From Candidatus Solibacter sp. (GTDB lineage: Bacteria > Acidobacteriota > Terriglobia > Bryobacterales > Bryobacteraceae), in NCBI GenBank assembly GCA_025463045.1, contig JAOAPT010000854.1:1-32998 (forward strand): DNA of 32,998 nt, in the 5' to 3' direction. Below the pieces are notes generated by a model that worked only from the letters and a program-made list of their open reading frames with translations, was not told the DNA's origin and ran no database searches. The number at the start of each line of letters is the position of its first letter. Position 1 is the stretch's first letter. This document shows, one piece after another, positions 12,618 to 28,541 of this stretch. A program made the translations under genes and the position numbers.

Positions 12618-12797
12618 ATGACGTTTTTGCGCAATCTCTGGAATGAAGAACAGGGCCAGGATCTTATCGAGTACACCCTGCTGATGGCGTTCGTGGCGTT
12701 GGCTTCGGCGGCCCTTTTCTTGGGCGCCGGCGGCAGCATCAAGGGCATCTGGTCGACCACCAACTCCCAGCTCGCTGCAGCGAATTCCGCGAGCTAG
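12618..12797 (+). CDS. flp: Flp-family type IVb pilin
   Basis: MTFLRNLWNEEQGQDLIEYTLLMAFVALASAALFLGAGGSIKGIW; prepilin motif G/QDLIEY; SD aggag. Confidence 0.92.
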   Translation: MTFLRNLWNEEQGQDLIEYTLLMAFVALASAALFLGAGGSIKGIWSTTNSQLAAANSAS

Positions 12798-13013: not shown

Positions 13014-13919
13014 ATGAATAAAAGATTTGTTGGGGTTTTAACATTCGCATTTCTCGTCGCGGCAGGCGCCAGCCTGGTGCTGTATCGCGTCCTGATCAAT
13101 CGGGGACCCGACACAAAGGCGCAGACCAAGATGGTTCAGGTCGCGCTGGCGACGCGTAACCTCGAGGTCGGCAGCGTGCTCAAGGCGGACGACGTAGCGT
13201 TGTCGGAATGGCCGGGCGCAGTACCCATCGGCGCAACTGTCGAGGTGAAGGACGTTCTGGGCCGCGGTGTCACCACCGCGATCTACGCGAAGGAGCCGAT
13301 CATCGAATCGCGCCTCGCGCCCAAGGGCGCCGGCGGCGGACTGGCTGCGATGATCCCATCCGGAATGCGCGCCGTCGCGGTCCGAGTCAACGAGGTAGTC
13401 GGCGTCGCCGGCTTCGTCGTACCGGGCATGCACGTGGACATTCTGATTTCCGGCAACACTCCCGGAGGCGATGGCAACCTCGGCACGCTGACTAAGACAC
13501 TGTTGCAGAACATCGAAGTGCTTTCGGCCGGACAAGATTTCAAGAAGGACAACGAGGGCAAGCCGATCACGGTGCAGGTGGTCAACCTGCTGGTCACGCC
13601 CGAACAGGCAGAGCAACTCAGCCTGGCGTCGAACCAGACGACGATTCAGTTGATTCTTCGCAATCCCCTCGATCACGAAATATCCAAGACCACGGGTACG
13701 GCGCTGCGCAATCTGTTTACCGGCGGCCGGCCTCAACTCACCGATCGTGCGTCTTCGTCCGAAACCCCGCGTCCGCGCCCCGTGCAGCGGCCGGTTCCGG
13801 TTCGCGAAGTCGTGGTGGCGCCGCCGCCTCCGCCTAAGGAAGTGCCTTTCACCATGGAGATTATCTCCGGAAACAACAAGAGCGAGAAGAAATTCAACGG
13901 CTCTAAGGAGGGCAAGTAA
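13014..13919 (+). CDS. cpaB: Flp pilus assembly protein CpaB (RcpC, SAF domain)
   Basis: VQVALATRNLEVGSVLKADDVALSEWP, PSGMRAVAVRVNEVVGVAGFVVPGMHVDILIS. Confidence 0.92.
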   Translation: MNKRFVGVLTFAFLVAAGASLVLYRVLINRGPDTKAQTKMVQVALATRNLEVGSVLKADDVALSEWPGAVPIGATVEVKDVLGRGVTTAIYAKEPIIESRLAPKGAGGGLAAMIPSGMRAVAVRVNEVVGVAGFVVPGMHVDILISGNTPGGDGNLGTLTKTLLQNIEVLSAGQDFKKDNEGKPITVQVVNLLVTPEQAEQLSLASNQTTIQLILRNPLDHEISKTTGTALRNLFTGGRPQLTDRASSSETPRPRPVQRPVPVREVVVAPPPPPKEVPFTMEIISGNNKSEKKFNGSKEGK

Positions 13920-15506
13920 GTGTACCGGCTTCGCCTAGCAGCCATACCCGCCGCAGCTCTTTTGCTGTGGATTCCGGCCCGTTCCGTCGGCGAGCAGACG
14001 GCAGCGCCCCCACAGGATCCGGCACCCGCCGCCGTGCGCACCGAATCAGACCCGGCGGCCGCGAGCGCTCCGCAGGATGCGGCGCCCGGCGCCGGCAAAC
14101 TTACCGTAACGGTCGGTAAGAGCCTGATCATCGACAGTCCGATGAACATTCAGCGGATCTCGGTCGCCAACGGCGACCTGGTCGAAGCGGTCGCGATCAA
14201 TCCAAAGGAAGTCCTGATCAACGGAAAAGCTCCCGGTGAAACGTCCCTCATCGTGTGGCAGCAGGGTGGCAACCGCATTCTGTACGATCTGACGGTACGG
14301 GTCAGCCCCGCGCGTCTCGACATCGTGCGGCAGCAGCTCGCCCGTGACTTTCCGGACGACGAAATCAACGTCACGTACGACAACGAAATGGCGTTCGTGC
14401 GCGGCCGTGTGAAAGATCTCAACGCGAGCGATCGCGTTATGTCGATCGCGAGCAGCCTCGGCAAGGTGATCAACCTACTGCGCGTGGATGTTCCGCCGGT
14501 AGAAACGCAGATTCTGCTGCGCGTGCGGTTCGCGAATGTCGATCGCGGCGTCAGCCAGGATCTCGGCCTGGGGCTCGCCACGGGAGCGTTCAACCAGTCC
14601 ACGTCGATCAGCACCGGGCAGTTCTCTCCGCCCGCGGTTTCGACCGGTGGGACTGTGACTCTCTCGGACGCGCTCAACATCCTGCTGTTCCGCAAGGACA
14701 TCAACCTGGGCGTAACCATCAAGGCGCTGGAAAGCAAGCGCATGCTGGAGACTCTGGCCGAACCGAACGTGATGGCGATCAATGGAAAGCCGGCCAGCTT
14801 CATCGCGGGCGGCGAATTCCCGGTGCCGATGGTTCAGGGCGGCGGTGCGGTAGGCGCGGTCAGCATCTCGTTCCGCGAATTCGGTATCCGGATCAACTTC
14901 CTCCCGAAGGTCACGCCGCGGGGAACGATTCAGCTCCAGGTGGCGCCGGAAGTCAGCTCGCTCGACTACTCCAATGCGGTCACCTTCCAGGGCTACACGA
15001 TCCCGGCGCTGTCGACCCGGCGCATCCAGACCGAAGTGGAACTGGAATCCGGACAGAGCTTCGTGATCGCCGGATTGCTCGACAACCGGACGACGGAGAC
15101 GCTGAACAAGATCCCAGGCCTCGCAAACATTCCGCTGTTGGGCAAACTGTTTCAGAGCCGCGCAATCTCGAAGAACAATTCGGAGCTGATGGTGATCGTG
15201 ACGCCGGAAATCGTGCGCCCGATCCCCGCCGGACAGCCGATCCCGAGCTTGAATATGCCGGTGCCGTTCATGACCAAGAACACCGAAACCGAATTCCGCA
15301 CACCCGGAATCGACAAGACCGGGCCCGTGCCGGTGAAGCCCACGCAGGAAACGATGCCGGTGGAACTGCTGCAGCAGCAGCGCAAGGAAGGCCAGGCCGC
15401 GCCGCTTCCGATTCAGACTCTGCAATTGGTGGCGCCGACGCAGCCGCCGCCCCCTTCGTTGAATCCCGGACTTACGCCGGGAAACACCGGAGGAACAGGC
15501 AAATAG
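13920..15506 (+). CDS. cpaC: Tad secretin CpaC/RcpA
   Basis: GTG start directly after the cpaB stop. BON/N-terminal secretin region, ...LESGQSFVIAGLLDNRTTETLNKIPGLANIPLLGKLFQSRAISKNNSELMVIVTPEIV. Confidence 0.93.
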   Translation: MYRLRLAAIPAAALLLWIPARSVGEQTAAPPQDPAPAAVRTESDPAAASAPQDAAPGAGKLTVTVGKSLIIDSPMNIQRISVANGDLVEAVAINPKEVLINGKAPGETSLIVWQQGGNRILYDLTVRVSPARLDIVRQQLARDFPDDEINVTYDNEMAFVRGRVKDLNASDRVMSIASSLGKVINLLRVDVPPVETQILLRVRFANVDRGVSQDLGLGLATGAFNQSTSISTGQFSPPAVSTGGTVTLSDALNILLFRKDINLGVTIKALESKRMLETLAEPNVMAINGKPASFIAGGEFPVPMVQGGGAVGAVSISFREFGIRINFLPKVTPRGTIQLQVAPEVSSLDYSNAVTFQGYTIPALSTRRIQTEVELESGQSFVIAGLLDNRTTETLNKIPGLANIPLLGKLFQSRAISKNNSELMVIVTPEIVRPIPAGQPIPSLNMPVPFMTKNTETEFRTPGIDKTGPVPVKPTQETMPVELLQQQRKEGQAAPLPIQTLQLVAPTQPPPPSLNPGLTPGNTGGTGK

Positions 15507-15521
15507 CCTGGAGACCCCCTC

Positions 15522-16688
15522 ATGTATCCGTTGACCATTGGGCTGGCGATCGAAAACCGGGAGCTTTGGGATCAGGCGCAGGCGACGCTTGGCGAACTTC
15601 CCTTCCGCATTATTGTGGAGCACCAGGATATCGGCGACGTCAGCAACTTCCTGGACCGGCTGGAGAGGATGCGACCGGACGTCGTTCTGGTCGACATCAG
15701 CAACTGGAGAGAGCCGCTCGAGGGACTGGTGGCGTCGATCAAGGCCGCTGCCGGCGACCCGATGATCATCGCGCTCAATACGACGGCGGATGCGGACGCG
15801 ATCTTGTCCTCGCTGCGCGCCGGAATCAACGAATACCTTTATCCTCCGTTGCAGGATTCGCTGCGGCGTTCGCTGGAACGGCGCAGTCTGGAACGAAGCC
15901 GGCGGCGCGAAGGCGCTAAGGGAAACGGCAAGTCGCTCGGGTTTCTCTCGGCGAAAGGCGGCTGCGGTTCCACGACCCTGGTCTGCCATGTCGCCGCCGA
16001 ACTCGGCCGTTTGAATCAGCGGGTGCTGCTGGCGGATCTCGATCTCGACGCAGGCATGGTCGCGTTCATCACGAAGACGAAGTCCGTCTACTCGATTCTG
16101 GACGCGGTCAACAACCTGCACCGCCTCGACATTCACTACTGGCGCGCGCTGGTGTCGAACGGCATTCCGGGAGTGGAGATCGTCTCTTCGCCGGTCGCCC
16201 TCGCCACCAAGCAACAACCTAAGGACGACCAGATACGGCAGGTGATTTCATTCGCGCGGCCGCACTACGACTGGACGCTGGTCGATCTCGGCCGGAGCCT
16301 CAGCCGCCTGGGCATGGCGGCGCTCGAAGAAATCGACGAAGCCTGCCTGGTGACGACGCTGGAAGTGCCGGCGCTCCACCAGTCCAAGCAGATCATTCAG
16401 ACCCTCATCGATAGCGGTTACGGCAAGCATCGCATCAAGCTGATTCTCAACCGCGCGCCCAAACGGCTCGACATTACGCCCGGCGAACTCGAAAAGATGC
16501 TCGGCACGGCCATCTTCGCGATGGTGCCCAACGATTATCCCGAGTTGTACGAAACATACGCGGAAGGCCGCATGTTGAACCGCACCTCGGAACTGGGAAA
16601 GCAGATTGCCAAGCTCGCCGTGAAGTTGGCGAATCTTGAAGAAGAAAAAGCCGTGAACGGCAAGAAACGCTTCGCACTTTTCGGATAA
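15522..16688 (+). CDS. cpaE: Tad localisation ATPase CpaE/TadZ (receiver-like domain plus MinD-like domain)
   Basis: N-terminal receiver-like domain; GFLSAKGGCGSTTLVCHVAAEL deviant Walker A; LLADLDLDAGMV. Confidence 0.9.
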   Translation: MYPLTIGLAIENRELWDQAQATLGELPFRIIVEHQDIGDVSNFLDRLERMRPDVVLVDISNWREPLEGLVASIKAAAGDPMIIALNTTADADAILSSLRAGINEYLYPPLQDSLRRSLERRSLERSRRREGAKGNGKSLGFLSAKGGCGSTTLVCHVAAELGRLNQRVLLADLDLDAGMVAFITKTKSVYSILDAVNNLHRLDIHYWRALVSNGIPGVEIVSSPVALATKQQPKDDQIRQVISFARPHYDWTLVDLGRSLSRLGMAALEEIDEACLVTTLEVPALHQSKQIIQTLIDSGYGKHRIKLILNRAPKRLDITPGELEKMLGTAIFAMVPNDYPELYETYAEGRMLNRTSELGKQIAKLAVKLANLEEEKAVNGKKRFALFG

Positions 16689-16702: not shown

Positions 16703-18061
16703 ATGGCGCCAGTATTAGATTCCGTACAACGAACCGACTCGCGGGAGACCGGCTGGGTAAACCGCCTGTTCACCCGTGAGGGCTCCACTCCCGAGTACCA
16801 GGAGCTGAAGTTCACGCTGCACCGCAAGCTGCTGGACCGGATCAACCTGGAGGCGCTCTCGTCGATGGCCGGGGAACGGGTGCGCGCCGAAATCCGCGCT
16901 GCCGTCGCCAAGCTTGTCGAGGAAGAGAAGACTCCCCTCAGCCTGGTAGAGAAAGACCGCGTCATCGAAGAAATTCTCGATGAGGTCTTTGGCCTTGGTC
17001 CGCTGGAGCCGCTGCTTCAAGATCCCACGGTGAGCGACATTCTGGTCACCACGCCGCATCTGGTCTACGTGGAAAAGGCGGGCAAACTTTATCGTACGCC
17101 GGTCGAATTCAAGGACGACGCGCACCTGTTGCGGATCATCGAAAAGATCGTGTCGCGCGTCGGACGCCGCGTCGACGAATCGTCGCCGCTGGTGGATGCG
17201 CGCCTGCCCGATGGCTCGCGCGTCAACGTGGCGATTCCGCCGGTCGCGGTGGATGGCCCGCTGCTCTCAATCCGCCGTTTCGGACGGCACGCGCTCAAGG
17301 GTGAGGATCTGGTCGCAAAACTGGCGATGACGGACGGCATGCTGGAACTGTTGAAAGGCTGCGTGAAGGCGCGGCTCAACATTCTGATCTGCGGCGGTAC
17401 CGGTTCCGGTAAGACGACGCTGCTGAATGCGCTCTCCTCTTATATTCCGGAAGACGAACGCATCGTGACGATTGAAGACGCGGCCGAACTTCGGCTGCAG
17501 CAGACCCACGTGGCCCGCATGGAAACCCGGCCGGCGAACGTGGAAGGTACGGGCGCCATTCACATCCGGCAGCTGGTAATCAATGCCCTCCGTATGCGTC
17601 CCGACCGCATCATCGTTGGCGAAGTCCGATCGGAAGAAGCGCTGGACATGTTGCAGGCGATGAACACGGGTCACGACGGATCGCTCACCACGATCCACGC
17701 GAATACGCCGCGCGATGGACTGGGCCGCTTGGAAGTGATGGTCGGCATGGCGAACGCGAACATGGGAATCCGTTCGGTGCGCGCGCAGATTTCGAGCGCG
17801 GTTAATCTCTTCGTGCAGACTTCGCGTTTCAGCGATGGCGTCCGCCGCATCACGCACATCACGGAAGTGGTCGGCATGGAGCAGGACATCATCACTCTGC
17901 AGGATATCTTCCTGTTCGAAAAGACCGGCATCACGGAGAGCGGCAAAGTCGTCGGCCGTTTCCGCGCCACCGGTATCCGTCCCAAGTTCTATGACCGCCT
18001 GAAACAGAGCGGCATCGTTCTGCCCACGCAGATGTTCCAAACGGTCGTGGAGATTAACTGA
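16703..18061 (+). CDS. cpaF: Secretion ATPase CpaF/TadA
   Basis: [79 protein letters not shown]. Confidence 0.96.
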
Positions 18062-19032
18062 TGCCCTTGACACTAATTGTTTCTTTCGTCGTGGTGTTCG
18101 CGCTCATGCTGATGGCGGTGAGCCTCGGACTGAAATATTTCGACGCGCGCCGGAAGAAACAAGTGGTGGACATGCTGCACACGGCCTCCGGGGAACCGGT
18201 GGTCAGCGTCAGCAACCTGCTGAAGGAAATCGAAGGCGACAAGCCGACCGGCCTCAAGCGGCTGCTTTCCTCGCTGGAGTTTTCGCGGCACGCCGCGGAG
18301 CAGATTCAGCAGGCGGGACTGAACTGGTCCGCCCAACGCCTGATGCTGGCGATGGCGTTGATGATGATTCCGGGATTCGGGCTCGGGTTGATGGTGCCGT
18401 TTCTGTTCAACGCGGCCACGACCGCGGTGGTGCTCGCGCTGATCTTCGGCTCGCTGCCGTATGTAGTGGTGCGGCAGAAGCGCAGCAAGCGCCTGAATAC
18501 ACTCGAAGAGCAGTTCCCCGAGTCGCTCGATTTCCTGGCGAGATCGATGCGCGCCGGGCACGCCTTTTCGATCAGCCTGGAAATGCTGGGCGAGGAAATG
18601 GCGGATCCGCTGGGGCAGGAGTTCCGCGCGCTGTTCAATGAGCAGAACCTGGGCGCGCCGCTGGATACCGCGCTACACAACTTCACGACGCGCGTTCCGC
18701 TGCTCGACGTCCGGTTTTTCACTTCGTCGGTGCTGCTGCAGAAGCAGACCGGCGGCAATCTCAGCGAAATCCTGGCCCGCCTGGCCTACGTGATTCGCGA
18801 GCGCTTCCGTTTGAAGGGCCAGGTCAAAGCGGCCTCCGCACACGGACGGCTGACGGCAACGATTTTGACGCTCCTTCCGGTGGGCACTATGCTCGCGCTG
18901 CTGGTGGTGGCCCCGGGCTACCTGCAAGGGATGGCTGAGGACCCCGACGGGAAATTTCTGATCGGCGGCGCGATTGTGGCCCAGATCCTGGGAAATTTTT
19001 TCATCAAGAAGATCATCAACATTAAGGTCTGA
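18061..19032 (+). CDS. tadB: Tad inner membrane protein TadB (GspF-type)
   Basis: FPESLDFLARSMRAGHAFSISLEMLGEEMADPLGQEFR plus C-terminal TMs; overlaps the cpaF stop (TGATG). Confidence 0.9.
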   Translation: MPLTLIVSFVVVFALMLMAVSLGLKYFDARRKKQVVDMLHTASGEPVVSVSNLLKEIEGDKPTGLKRLLSSLEFSRHAAEQIQQAGLNWSAQRLMLAMALMMIPGFGLGLMVPFLFNAATTAVVLALIFGSLPYVVVRQKRSKRLNTLEEQFPESLDFLARSMRAGHAFSISLEMLGEEMADPLGQEFRALFNEQNLGAPLDTALHNFTTRVPLLDVRFFTSSVLLQKQTGGNLSEILARLAYVIRERFRLKGQVKAASAHGRLTATILTLLPVGTMLALLVVAPGYLQGMAEDPDGKFLIGGAIVAQILGNFFIKKIINIKV

Positions 19033-19051: not shown

Positions 19052-19999
19052 ATGCATCATCCGATACTCTTTTCGATTTGCGCGTTCCTGATGCTGATGG
19101 TGATCCTGAGCTGGGTCGGGTACCGTCTCATCTACAAGCCCGGCAAGTTTTTGCGTCAGCTAGGCAACCCGGTCATCACCAACGACTCCAAGCAGCGCAT
19201 TATCGACGAGGGCGGAGAGCCCGAGGCGAGCGCGCTGGTAACGGTGCTGCACCAGATCGGCTCGCGCGTTCCGTCGTCGGCCACCGAAGTCGCCAACTTG
19301 AAGGGCGACCTGATCCGCGCCGGATACCGTGGGGAGAACGCACTTGCCGTGTTTTACGGAGTGCGCATCCTGACCACGCTCGGAATGCTGCTGCTTTGCG
19401 TGATGATGGAAGCCCGGATGCCGCCGAACCCGGTGATGAAACTGGGCCTGATGGCTTCGGGCGTCGGCGCGGGCTGGATTCTGCCGCGATTCTTCCTGGA
19501 AAAGAAAGTCTCCAAGCGGAAAGAGACGCTGCGTCTGTCGCTGCCGGACGCCCTGGATTTGCTGGTGGTATCGATCGAAGCCGGCCTCGGCCTCGACCAG
19601 GCGATCCAACACGTGGCGCGCGAGCTCTATGGGAGCCATCCGCAATTGAGCGATGAAATGCAGTTGGTGACGCTCGAAATGCGCGCCGGTAAACGGCGCA
19701 GCGAGGCGCTGAGGAATTTTGCGGAACGGACCGGCGAGGCCGAGTTCCGTAAGCTGGTCGCGATTCTGATTCAGAACGACCGTTTCGGCACCAGCATGGG
19801 CGAAAGCCTGCGTACGCACTCCGACTTTCTGCGCACGCGCCGCCGGCAGGAAGCCGAAGAGCGCGCCGGCAAAGTCGGCGTCAAGCTGGTCTTTCCGATT
19901 TTCTTTTTTATTTTGCCGTCCATGCTGGTGGTGGCGGCAGGACCGGGCATTCTACAGATCTTCAAATATCTGTTCCCGATGATGAAGACCATAGGATGA
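19052..19999 (+). CDS. tadC: Tad inner membrane protein TadC (GspF-type)
   Basis: LPDALDLLVVSIEAGLGLDQAIQHVARELYGSHPQLSDEMQLVTLEMRAGKRRSEALRNFAERTG. Confidence 0.9.
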   Translation: MHHPILFSICAFLMLMVILSWVGYRLIYKPGKFLRQLGNPVITNDSKQRIIDEGGEPEASALVTVLHQIGSRVPSSATEVANLKGDLIRAGYRGENALAVFYGVRILTTLGMLLLCVMMEARMPPNPVMKLGLMASGVGAGWILPRFFLEKKVSKRKETLRLSLPDALDLLVVSIEAGLGLDQAIQHVARELYGSHPQLSDEMQLVTLEMRAGKRRSEALRNFAERTGEAEFRKLVAILIQNDRFGTSMGESLRTHSDFLRTRRRQEAEERAGKVGVKLVFPIFFFILPSMLVVAAGPGILQIFKYLFPMMKTIG

Positions 20000-20021
20000 G
20001 AGAACAAGGAGCGCAAAAACG

Positions 20022-20120
20022 ATGAACGAAACAATCATGCAAGCGGGGATTTGGATTGCAGCGGGGGGCATCATGATGATCTTCCTCAAAAGGCGGCGGT
20101 CTCGCAAGACCACTCGCTAA
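20022..20120 (+). CDS. 32-aa single-TM microprotein with polybasic C-tail (MNETIMQAGIWIAAGGIMMIFLKRRRSRKTTR)
   Basis: AAGGAG SD about 10 nt upstream of the ATG; hydrophobic core then KRRRSRKTTR; similar to the adjacent 31-aa ORF. Not in the ORF track because of size. Confidence 0.65.
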   Translation: MNETIMQAGIWIAAGGIMMIFLKRRRSRKTTR

Positions 20121-20159
20121 CCCTGGGAATCCGGACTGAAATCAGGAAAGGAGACCAGA

Positions 20160-20255
20160 ATGGAGATGGCAATTCAAGGGGCAATCTGGCTAGGCGCGGG
20201 CGTCTCACTGGTAGTGCTGCTTTCACGGCGCCGCCGCCGCCGGGTAGTCCGTTGA
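20160..20255 (+). CDS. 31-aa single-TM microprotein with polyarginine C-tail (MEMAIQGAIWLGAGVSLVVLLSRRRRRRVVR)
   Basis: AAAGGAG SD 6 nt before the ATG; aligns with the preceding microprotein (IMQAGIWIAAGGIMMIFLKRRR / AIQGAIWLGAGVSLVVLLSRRR). Confidence 0.68.
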   Translation: MEMAIQGAIWLGAGVSLVVLLSRRRRRRVVR

Positions 20256-20324
20256 TGTCGTTGGAGTAGTGGCTGGCGCAGGGTCCCACCGCTTCCGGCG
20301 GGAAGCTTCGCCAGCCAGGAAATC

Positions 20325-21179
20325 ATGTCGATCGAATCCCTGGTGTCCAGACAGAATCGAGATGGCGGGTGGGCCTACGTGCGCGGAGCATCGTGGACGG
20401 AGCCGACCGTGTACGCCGTCCTGGCTCTCTTGGCCGCCGGCGAAACCGAAGCGGTGCGCAGGGGCCTGACGTGGCTGCGCGCACAACAGCTGCCCGACGG
20501 GGGATGGCCTCCGCAGACCGGCTTCGATGAAAGCACCTGGGTTACCGCGGTGGCCGCCCTGGTCCCTCGCGAACATCTCGGAACTCAGTCCCACGGACGG
20601 GCGATTGAATGGGTCATGAAAACCTGCGGAGAGGAATCCACTCACACATTCCGATTACGCCAATGGCTGCTCGGCTACTCGCCCGCGCGGTCTGAACCCG
20701 TGGCATGGCCCTGGGTGCCGGGTACGGCGTCATGGGTGGGACCGACCTCGATCTCGGTAATCGCTCTGGACAAAGAAAATGCGACCCGGCGGAGTCCGGC
20801 GATCGCGCGCCGGATCGCGGAGGGGCGGCGCTTCCTGATGGAGCGCGGCTGCCCTGGCGGCGGCTGGAATCACGGGTCGGTGCGGGTCTACGGAAAGGAC
20901 GGGCTGCCCTATCCGGAGACGACGGGAATCGCGCTGGCCGCGCTGCGCGGAGTGCGCTCGACGCAGACCGAAAAGGCAATTGCGGTGGCGCAAGAATTTC
21001 TCGTTGAATCGCGCTCGGCGGACGCGTTGAACTGGCTGCGGCTGGGCCTGCTCGCGCACGATCATCTGCCCGCCAACTACAGTGTGCCGGCCAACGTGAC
21101 GTGCCGAACCTTGATCGAAACGTCTTTGAATATGCTGGTGGCCGAAACACGCGGCGCCCGCGAGTTGTTTTGGGGCTGA
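20325..21179 (+). CDS. Prenyltransferase/squalene-cyclase repeat (alpha/alpha-toroid) protein, probably not a canonical cyclase
   Basis: QW-like repeats: RQNRDGGWAY, QQLPDGGWPP, GCPGGGWNHG; no DxDD class-II cyclase motif. Confidence 0.75.
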   Translation: MSIESLVSRQNRDGGWAYVRGASWTEPTVYAVLALLAAGETEAVRRGLTWLRAQQLPDGGWPPQTGFDESTWVTAVAALVPREHLGTQSHGRAIEWVMKTCGEESTHTFRLRQWLLGYSPARSEPVAWPWVPGTASWVGPTSISVIALDKENATRRSPAIARRIAEGRRFLMERGCPGGGWNHGSVRVYGKDGLPYPETTGIALAALRGVRSTQTEKAIAVAQEFLVESRSADALNWLRLGLLAHDHLPANYSVPANVTCRTLIETSLNMLVAETRGARELFWG

Positions 21180-21182
21180 TGG

Positions 21183-22154
21183 ATGGCGACTCAACTGACA
21201 AGGCGTGAGGTATTGGCGGTCGCGGGCGGCGTCGTGCTGGCCGGCTGCGGGGTGGAGCAGCGCCGCTTCGAGCCTTCGAAAGTCTCGATCGTGAGGGCGG
21301 CGGTGTACGACCAGAGCATCTACGATACGATGCGCCGCATGCTGCAGTTGCATCTCGGCGATTTGACAGGGCGGCACGTCCTGCTGAAGCCCAACCTGGT
21401 GGAGTTCGAGCCCGGCACGTGCATCAACACGCACCCCATGGTGGTCCACGCCGCGCTCGAGGCATTTCACGCGCTCGGCGCCGCGACGGTCCGGATCGCC
21501 GAGGGTCCGGGACACCGGCGCAATACGCTGGACCTGGCGGACTCGGCCGGCTATTTCCAGACCGTACCCAATTTCGAGGAACACTTCACCGATCTCAACC
21601 TGGACGAGGTTACGCGGGTGCAGCCGGCGGAGCAATTCTCGCGCATCAAGAAACTCTATCTTCCGAACAGCGCGCTGCGCGCCGATCTGCTGGTCTCGAT
21701 GGCCAAGATGAAGACGCATCACTGGGTGGGCGCGACGCTATCCATGAAGAACCTTTTCGGCACGGTGCCGGGCGGAATCTACGGCTGGCCGAAAAATGTG
21801 CTGCACTGGGCGGGGATCGAGGAATCGATCGCCGACTTGCATAACGCGTATTCCAACCACTTCGCGATTGTCGATGGGATCGTGGGGATGGAAGGTAACG
21901 GTCCGATTCAAGGAACGCCGAAGGCCGTGGGTGTTCTGGTGGCGGGGAAGGACCCGGTGGCGGTCGATGCCACCTGCTGCCGCATTATGAAGATCGACCC
22001 GATGCGGATTCGCTATATGCAACTGGCGACCGATGGCTCGGGTGCGGCGATTATCGAGGACAGTATCACGCAAATCGGAGAGAGCATTCAAAGTGTTGCC
22101 ACACCGTTCGAACTGATTCCTGAGTTCCAGCGGCTACGCCTGGAGAATAGCTAG
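21183..22154 (+). CDS. DUF362-domain protein with Tat/lipoprotein-like N-terminus
   Basis: MATQLTRREVLAVAGGVVLAGCG (RR motif plus lipobox), LKPNLVEFEPGTCINTHPMVVHAALEAF, SMAKMKTHHWVGATLSMKNLFGTVPGGIYGWPKNVLHWAGI, GNGPIQGTPKAVGVLVAGKDPVAVDATCCRIM. Confidence 0.85.
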   Translation: MATQLTRREVLAVAGGVVLAGCGVEQRRFEPSKVSIVRAAVYDQSIYDTMRRMLQLHLGDLTGRHVLLKPNLVEFEPGTCINTHPMVVHAALEAFHALGAATVRIAEGPGHRRNTLDLADSAGYFQTVPNFEEHFTDLNLDEVTRVQPAEQFSRIKKLYLPNSALRADLLVSMAKMKTHHWVGATLSMKNLFGTVPGGIYGWPKNVLHWAGIEESIADLHNAYSNHFAIVDGIVGMEGNGPIQGTPKAVGVLVAGKDPVAVDATCCRIMKIDPMRIRYMQLATDGSGAAIIEDSITQIGESIQSVATPFELIPEFQRLRLENS

Positions 22155-27590: not shown

Positions 27591-28541
27591 GTGACCCCTC
27601 CGGCTTTTAACCCGTTCCTGATGGTCGAGTCCAGCGGACGTCGATTTCCGCTCGGCGAAGGACAATCGTGGGCGATCGGTCGTGGAGACGGGTGTGCCGT
27701 GATGCTCGATAGCCGCTCGGTTTCCCGGTTGCACGCGCTGATTCAGCGGCGGGATACCGGCGACCTCGCGCTGGTCGACTTGGGTAGCCGCAACGGATCC
27801 TTCGTCAACGGACGGCGGGTCAGTTTCCCGGTGGTGCTGAACGATAGCGACAAGCTGGTGTTCGGCGACCAGGACCTGGTCTTCCGCAATCCGGCGCGCT
27901 CGGAATCCGTGCTGGCGAACAGCGGTGTGGACCTGCGCAACGAACCGACCACGGCGCTGCACACCAACAGCCTGACGACGATCATGGTGGTGGACATCCG
28001 CGACTTCACTCCGCTGGCGCGATCGCTGCCGGAAGCGCTGCTCTCGCAGACGATCGGTACCTGGTTCCTGCGCAGCGGGCAGATCGTGCAGCGGTTGGGG
28101 AGTTGGGCGCAGAAGTATATCGGGGACGCGGTGATGGCCGTGTGGGTTCACGATCAGCGCGAGCAGTTGGGAGCGGACCTGGTGAAGGTGCTGCGCGCGG
28201 TGACGGAGATCAGTGCGGCGACGGCGGAGATCAGTCGCGCGCTCGAGCTGCCGGTGCCGCTGCGGATCGGTGCGGGTGTGAATACGGGGCCGGCGATTCT
28301 GGGCGGCACGGATTATACGGTGCTCGGCGACACGGTGAATGCGGCGTTCCGGCTGGAATCGGCGACGAAGTCGATCGGCCTCGGAGTGGCGATCGGCGGT
28401 CCGGTGTATCAGGGGCTCTCGGAGAGCGCTCGGCTTGGGTTCGTGCGGCGCGAAGTGGAGTTGAAGGGGTACGAAGGCTCGAGCATCGCGTGGGCGATCT
28501 CGTTCGAGGATCTGAAGGACTCGCTGCGGAAGAACGGGTAA
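27591..28541 (+). CDS. FHA domain plus class III adenylate/guanylate cyclase
   Basis: FHA: WAIGRGDGCAVMLDSRSVSRLHALIQRR...LVDLGSRNGSFVNGRRV. Cyclase: TIMVVDIRDFTPLARSL, GSWAQKYIGDAVMAVW, DYTVLGDTVNAAFRLESATK. GTG start. Confidence 0.9.
   Translation: MTPPAFNPFLMVESSGRRFPLGEGQSWAIGRGDGCAVMLDSRSVSRLHALIQRRDTGDLALVDLGSRNGSFVNGRRVSFPVVLNDSDKLVFGDQDLVFRNPARSESVLANSGVDLRNEPTTALHTNSLTTIMVVDIRDFTPLARSLPEALLSQTIGTWFLRSGQIVQRLGSWAQKYIGDAVMAVWVHDQREQLGADLVKVLRAVTEISAATAEISRALELPVPLRIGAGVNTGPAILGGTDYTVLGDTVNAAFRLESATKSIGLGVAIGGPVYQGLSESARLGFVRREVELKGYEGSSIAWAISFEDLKDSLRKNG

Follow-up and report, generated by a model that had tools for sequence, protein, structure and literature searches.

Organization of the tad locus

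The window, by which we mean the whole stretch of 32,998 nucleotides analysed here, contains a compact tad operon that runs from a probable Flp prepilin through rcpC, rcpA, a tadZ-like gene, tadA and tadB to tadC and is followed by two tiny ORFs (Table 1). A Pfam search of the probable prepilin gave no match. Both ORFs possess a Shine-Dalgarno sequence and share the same architecture, as an earlier note on this DNA had described; its size of about 31 aa is right for copy 2, while copy 1 is one residue longer. The spacing of the copy 1 Shine-Dalgarno sequence is unchanged in relatives, and the AAAGGAG of copy 2 is kept in them. The note had also placed the pair between tadC and a toroid/DUF362 module in a single orientation, and the coordinates bear this out.

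Table 1. Genes and sequence features of the window.
Feature	Positions	Strand	Length or spacing	Sequence or evidence
Probable Flp-type prepilin	12618..12797	+	59 aa	..EEQGQDLIEYTLL..; G-x4-E-Y motif by eye
rcpC/cpaB	13014..13919	+		NCBIfam TIGR03177, 3.2e-63; Pfam RcpC, 2.3e-28
rcpA secretin	13920..15506	+		Pfam Secretin, 7.6e-45
tadZ/cpaE-like ParA/MinD ATPase	15522..16688	+		Pfam AAA_31, 6.7e-11
tadA/cpaF motor ATPase	16703..18061	+		Pfam T2SSE, 1.9e-60
tadB, Tad platform protein (T2SSF)	18061..19032	+		Pfam PF00482, 8e-16
tadC, Tad platform protein (T2SSF)	19052..19999	+		Pfam PF00482, 6.8e-21
Shine-Dalgarno core GGAG, copy 1 (AAGGAG)	20008..20011	+	10 nt 5' of ATG
Microprotein copy 1	20022..20120	+	32 aa	MNETIMQAGIWIAAGGIMMIFLKRRRSRKTTR; tail KRRRSRKTTR; predicted N-out/C-in single TM helix
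Shine-Dalgarno core GGAG, copy 2 (AAAGGAG)	20150..20153	+	6 nt 5' of ATG
Microprotein copy 2	20160..20255	+	31 aa	MEMAIQGAIWLGAGVSLVVLLSRRRRRRVVR; architecture as copy 1, tail SRRRRRRVVR
Conserved hairpin	approx. 20272..20319			TGGCTGGCG..CGCCAGCCA
Squalene-cyclase-like toroid gene	start 20325	+
DUF362 gene	start 21183	+
Protein with FHA and adenylate/guanylate cyclase domain	27591..28541

No model of Pfam, NCBIfam, PHROGs or the PDB passes its cut-off for the microproteins. The literature searched, largely openly available papers, contains no small Tad transmembrane (TM) protein, and large small-protein catalogues may hold the bare sequences.

The microprotein ORFs are under purifying selection

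Across eight genus loci copy 1 has a dN/dS ratio of 0.13 and copy 2 one of 0.17-0.18; tadC, counted in seven of the same eight loci, has 0.136. A neutral ratio among homologues was sought and purifying selection was found instead: the other two reading frames give ratios above 2, with no sign of constraint, and none of 300 neutral simulations reached values as low as those observed. Most changes fall on codon position 3 (402 of 633 and 407 of 575 in the two copies, genus loci). In 119 of 153 loci, some of them duplicates, the 350 nt that follow tadC contain an ORF with a Shine-Dalgarno sequence, a TM segment and a basic tail; such an ORF occurs in 10 of 3584 control windows drawn from the same loci. 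Purifying selection confined to the proper frame, together with the excess over control windows, indicates that the ORFs are more than chance, and the possibility of a chance ORF was excluded on these grounds. Judging from the sequences, the ORFs are real protein-coding genes.

Distribution of the family and its linkage to tadC

When the sequence downstream of tadC was inspected in 61 relatives retrieved by a TadC search, a 30-33 aa single-TM, RRR-tailed ORF was found behind nearly all tadC genes, and a copy 1 orthologue follows tadC in every readable locus of the genus. A profile built from 39 members and searched without reference to tadC matches 110 of 120 genomes of the family and 62 of 64 genera (E<=0.001), so a conserved ORF, whose presence in related genomes the earlier note had left to be checked, does occur in them. 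The connection with Tad that the note had suggested is seen in the 69 loci that were fetched (29 of the best matches and 40 chosen as tandem, single or weaker cases, hence not a random sample, and a few cover one place twice): without exception the microprotein shares the strand of tadC and begins 12-357 nt behind it. Two seemingly unlinked rows among the fetched loci are pieces of long frames. In a phylum-wide profile search, 13 non-self loci from other families among the 30 best matches again lie next to tadC. With duplicates removed and the profile search added, at least one microprotein accompanies 137 of 173 distinct tadC genes. L124, positive by the Shine-Dalgarno/TM/tail pattern only, is doubtful. 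In outline, members of the family consist of a short N-terminus, a single TM helix and an RRRK tail. MAGs of Ca. Solibacter, Paludibaculum and Granulicella are among the carriers that have a name. The microprotein is thus, in the genomic sense, a consistent same-strand component of tad loci, with one exception (G204) treated below.

The remaining 36 of the 173 tadC genes, mostly from other TadC clades, have no microprotein, which means that it is not universal to Tad; three of the loci without it (L022, L125 and L137) sit within the Arg-type TadC clade described in the next section. Six plasmid-borne tadC loci from Pseudomonadota and Actinomycetota have no microprotein, a tblastn search of plasmids with a hand-typed family-like consensus peptide, an approximate query, gave no match, and viral contigs scanned for TadC yielded no relative. 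A fusion of microprotein and TadC was also considered and rejected: no C-terminal extension of a TadC protein from the fetched loci contains the microprotein. One locus (L111), from a record titled Bordetella parapertussis, matches a Bryobacterales-type genome and probably belongs to a mislabelled MAG. The microprotein is missing from several other TadC clades, and behind some of the tadC genes without it (L122, L136 and L142) comes a DUF192-like ORF.

Subtypes and duplication

There are two main types of microprotein, the Trp-type (..Q..IWxxAG..L..RRRKRK) and the Arg-type (..IRIVCAVLAVxxLGxIVLRRRK). Both are present in the source genome, which bears the pair in the window and, in a further tad locus on another contig (C511), a single copy of the Arg-type. 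The subtype tracks the TadC tree, a FastTree tree in which near-copies help clustering, with 16 changes compared with a shuffled mean of 85.6; the tree labels come from the Shine-Dalgarno/TM/tail pattern and mark L072, L090 and L162 as lacking a microprotein that the profile search does find there. The two types are alike in place, length and layout, their cross-HMM matches are weak (E 0.005-0.01), and hhalign gives a probability of 95.5% over 31 columns, a score of the kind that TM composition inflates. A shared ancestry of the Trp-type and the Arg-type is likely from these comparisons.

The earlier note had read the tandem ORFs as paralogues that arose by duplication and were both retained. 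The copies are 42% identical, and in one TadC clade none of the 20 rows has lost either copy of the window-type pair, from which it follows that the duplication is older than the clade and that both copies were retained. Further tandem copies occur elsewhere on the TadC tree, for example three in L039 and two each in L156, L073, L231, L232 and L238, and these other TadC clades duplicated the microprotein separately. The note had covered the pair only; a single copy after tadC is the commoner state, spans the order and reaches other families of Acidobacteriota, and it is probably ancestral.

Predicted topology and conserved helix face

In a set of 154 peptides the N-side averages a charge of -0.7 and the C-tail one of +4.8, which by the positive-inside rule predicts an N-out, C-in orientation. 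All types share an invariant RR pair and a strongly basic C-tail. A single-sequence AlphaFold2 model of copy 1 consists of one helix, residues 2-26, with a mean pLDDT of 84. The Q, W, A, G, L and L that are conserved in the Trp-type share one helix face, the best period being 100 degrees. Tested at 100 degrees after neutralising the Trp column, the Trp-type conservation moment has p=0.015 in a second attempt that used a Trp-anchored alignment, an earlier anchor-shifted alignment having given p=0.12. The Trp-type and Arg-type combined give p=0.007, and the Arg-type alone has no significant helix face (p=0.20). Such one-sided conservation points to packing with a protein partner.

Proposed role in the Tad motor

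Because a similar tiny gene follows tadC in nearly all related soil bacteria checked, the unlisted gene described here is very probably an overlooked part of a surface-pilus machine. We consider it probable that the two ORFs belong, as paralogues, to a conserved family of microproteins built into the Tad (tight adherence, Flp) pilus systems that many Acidobacteriota possess, with an Nout-Cin helix that packs against TadB/TadC and tunes TadABC. In the arrangement that we infer for the cell, the microprotein would cross the inner membrane once, by a helix of 17-20 residues, with an acidic or neutral N-terminus on the periplasmic side and an RRRKR-type tail on the cytoplasmic side. The conserved face of the helix (a polar residue, Trp or a small residue, Ala and Leu) most likely packs on the TadB/TadC platform, which would be made just before the microprotein. 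The polybasic tail would then lie next to the TadA ring at the surface of the membrane, where it may touch TadA, cytoplasmic domains of the platform or anionic lipids. Stabilisation or tuning of the TadABC motor, such as CydX and AcrZ provide for their machines, is the most likely effect, and in the clade of the window the duplication has led to two differentiated copies.

Gene order alone fits TadC, TadB, TadA or a lipid as partner. Gene order, the co-tracking of subtype and TadC, and published platform models, in which TadB/TadC heterodimers are placed on a TadA hexamer (PMC11300603), together make TadC or TadB the natural candidate. Of the targets that the earlier note had offered for the polybasic tail, a putative interaction with the Tad machinery is better supported than one with lipid or nucleic acid. 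More tentatively, a core subunit of the Tad motor may have been overlooked in Acidobacteriota: the microprotein, present singly or as two differentiated copies, could be a 30-residue helix of Nout-Cin topology that is indispensable to the TadABC engine, completes the membrane platform of TadB/TadC and gates the transfer of force from TadA.

The CydX gene comes immediately after those for the large subunits of its machine, as the microprotein genes follow tadC, and AcrZ is encoded outside the acrAB operon. CydX is a 37 aa accessory subunit of cytochrome bd oxidase and, like the microproteins, a tiny single-helix membrane protein whose size makes annotation hard (PMC4325964, PMC6005532). The machines differ, the polybasic C-tail is peculiar to the microprotein, and the likeness is one of build, with no sequence relation claimed. 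AcrZ is a small AcrB-bound protein with a single helix, which docks on the TM region of its large machine and alters the activity of that machine (PMC7267776); this likeness too is one of build only. What the microprotein has of such a build is a predicted single helix and the one-sided conservation of the Trp-type, direct contact being putative. Among Tad/Flp (type IVc) systems, the machines of P. aeruginosa and C. crescentus have TadA, TadB, TadC, RcpA, RcpC, TadD and TadZ as named parts, and the sections of the published accounts available mention no 30-aa TM subunit (PMC12307814, PMC11300603), whereas the microproteins share their operon with the probable Flp prepilin, rcpC, rcpA, tadZ, tadA, tadB and tadC. 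For the membrane part of that motor there are models and no solved structure, and how TadA drives TadB/TadC both ways is described as open (PMC11300603, PMC12307814). If the proposal is true, a conserved and unannotated subunit would change the parts list for models of the Tad motor, and the microprotein would be required in any reconstitution of an acidobacterial Tad machine. The family also offers a clean case of a widely conserved gene under the usual annotation size limit, with a testable duplication history.

Alternative explanations and loci that do not fit

The invariant RR pair and the strongly basic C-tail of all types would suit a helix that is a mere anchor, its tail binding anionic lipid such as cardiolipin and so placing or recruiting the Tad machine with no specific contact to TadB/TadC. 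Since any hydrophobic residue would do for an anchor, the one-sided conservation of the Trp-type, which includes the inner-helix Q, W, A, G and L, counts against this reading, as does the tracking of TadC by subtype, and we regard it as unlikely. The tail might instead dock on TadA or TadZ and switch extension or retraction, so that the microprotein would inhibit or gate the motor and have no structural part in it. The predicted cytoplasmic location of the basic tail is compatible with such a role, and so is one Tad-like locus (L035) where a microprotein occurs with cpaF, with no adjacent tadC, in the company of ORFs that were named DUF192-like, FHA-like and Ser/Thr-kinase-like by reading their sequences. 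In nearly all loci, however, the microprotein follows tadC and not tadA, and a microprotein that acts mainly on the cytoplasmic motor seems to us quite unlikely.

The exception mentioned above is a genome from another acidobacterial family (G204, locus L187), which has two clear family members (E 1e-13 and 4.5e-10) and no TadB or TadC, only PilC/GspF-like proteins. Its microproteins have longer C-tails and lie near PilZ-like genes. They show that the microprotein can exist without Tad, and they could be relicts of a lost tad locus or have a second role. They are also what favours a small membrane protein of Tad-independent function, in stress, lipid or PilZ-related processes, that rides in the tad operon; the position behind tadC in all 69 fetched loci of the family and in 13 loci across the phylum, the persistence of tandem copies there, and a link to tadC that stays constant while the downstream genes vary by subtype leave this explanation with a small probability.

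A TM helix followed by Arg/Lys is also the layout of CTERM and LPXTG sorting signals, and it accounts for weak sub-threshold matches to LPXTG, MYXO-CTERM and similar models (the best being 15.0 against a cut-off of 15.9 and 16.6 against 23.5). The microprotein differs in being a free-standing gene with its own start and Shine-Dalgarno sequence; no sorting motif is present, no secreted protein is attached and all matches are under cut-off, on which grounds a sorting signal was rejected. A Flp or type IV prepilin was likewise rejected, as the 39-member alignment has no G-x4-E site and the basic cluster comes after the TM segment, a charge order opposite to that of a prepilin. We therefore see hardly any chance that the microprotein is a prepilin, a minor pilin or a free sorting-signal peptide. 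A type I toxin-like peptide or a leader peptide, suggested by size and hydrophobicity only, is just as remote, given an amino-acid-level constraint as strong as that of tadC and a fixed operon position in front of differing downstream genes.

Neighbouring genes

A conserved hairpin was noticed between copy 2 and the toroid gene. In 10 relatives 90% of its cells are paired compared with 23-58% in slid controls, and its covariation in these relatives is no higher than in shuffles. A further observation concerns positions 20325-22154: the squalene-cyclase-like toroid gene adjoins Trp-type tad loci in several genera and is accompanied by DUF362 where the flank reaches, and a beta-propeller-like ORF comes next at Arg-type tad loci. 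Elsewhere in the window lies a gene for a protein combining an FHA and an adenylate/guanylate cyclase domain.
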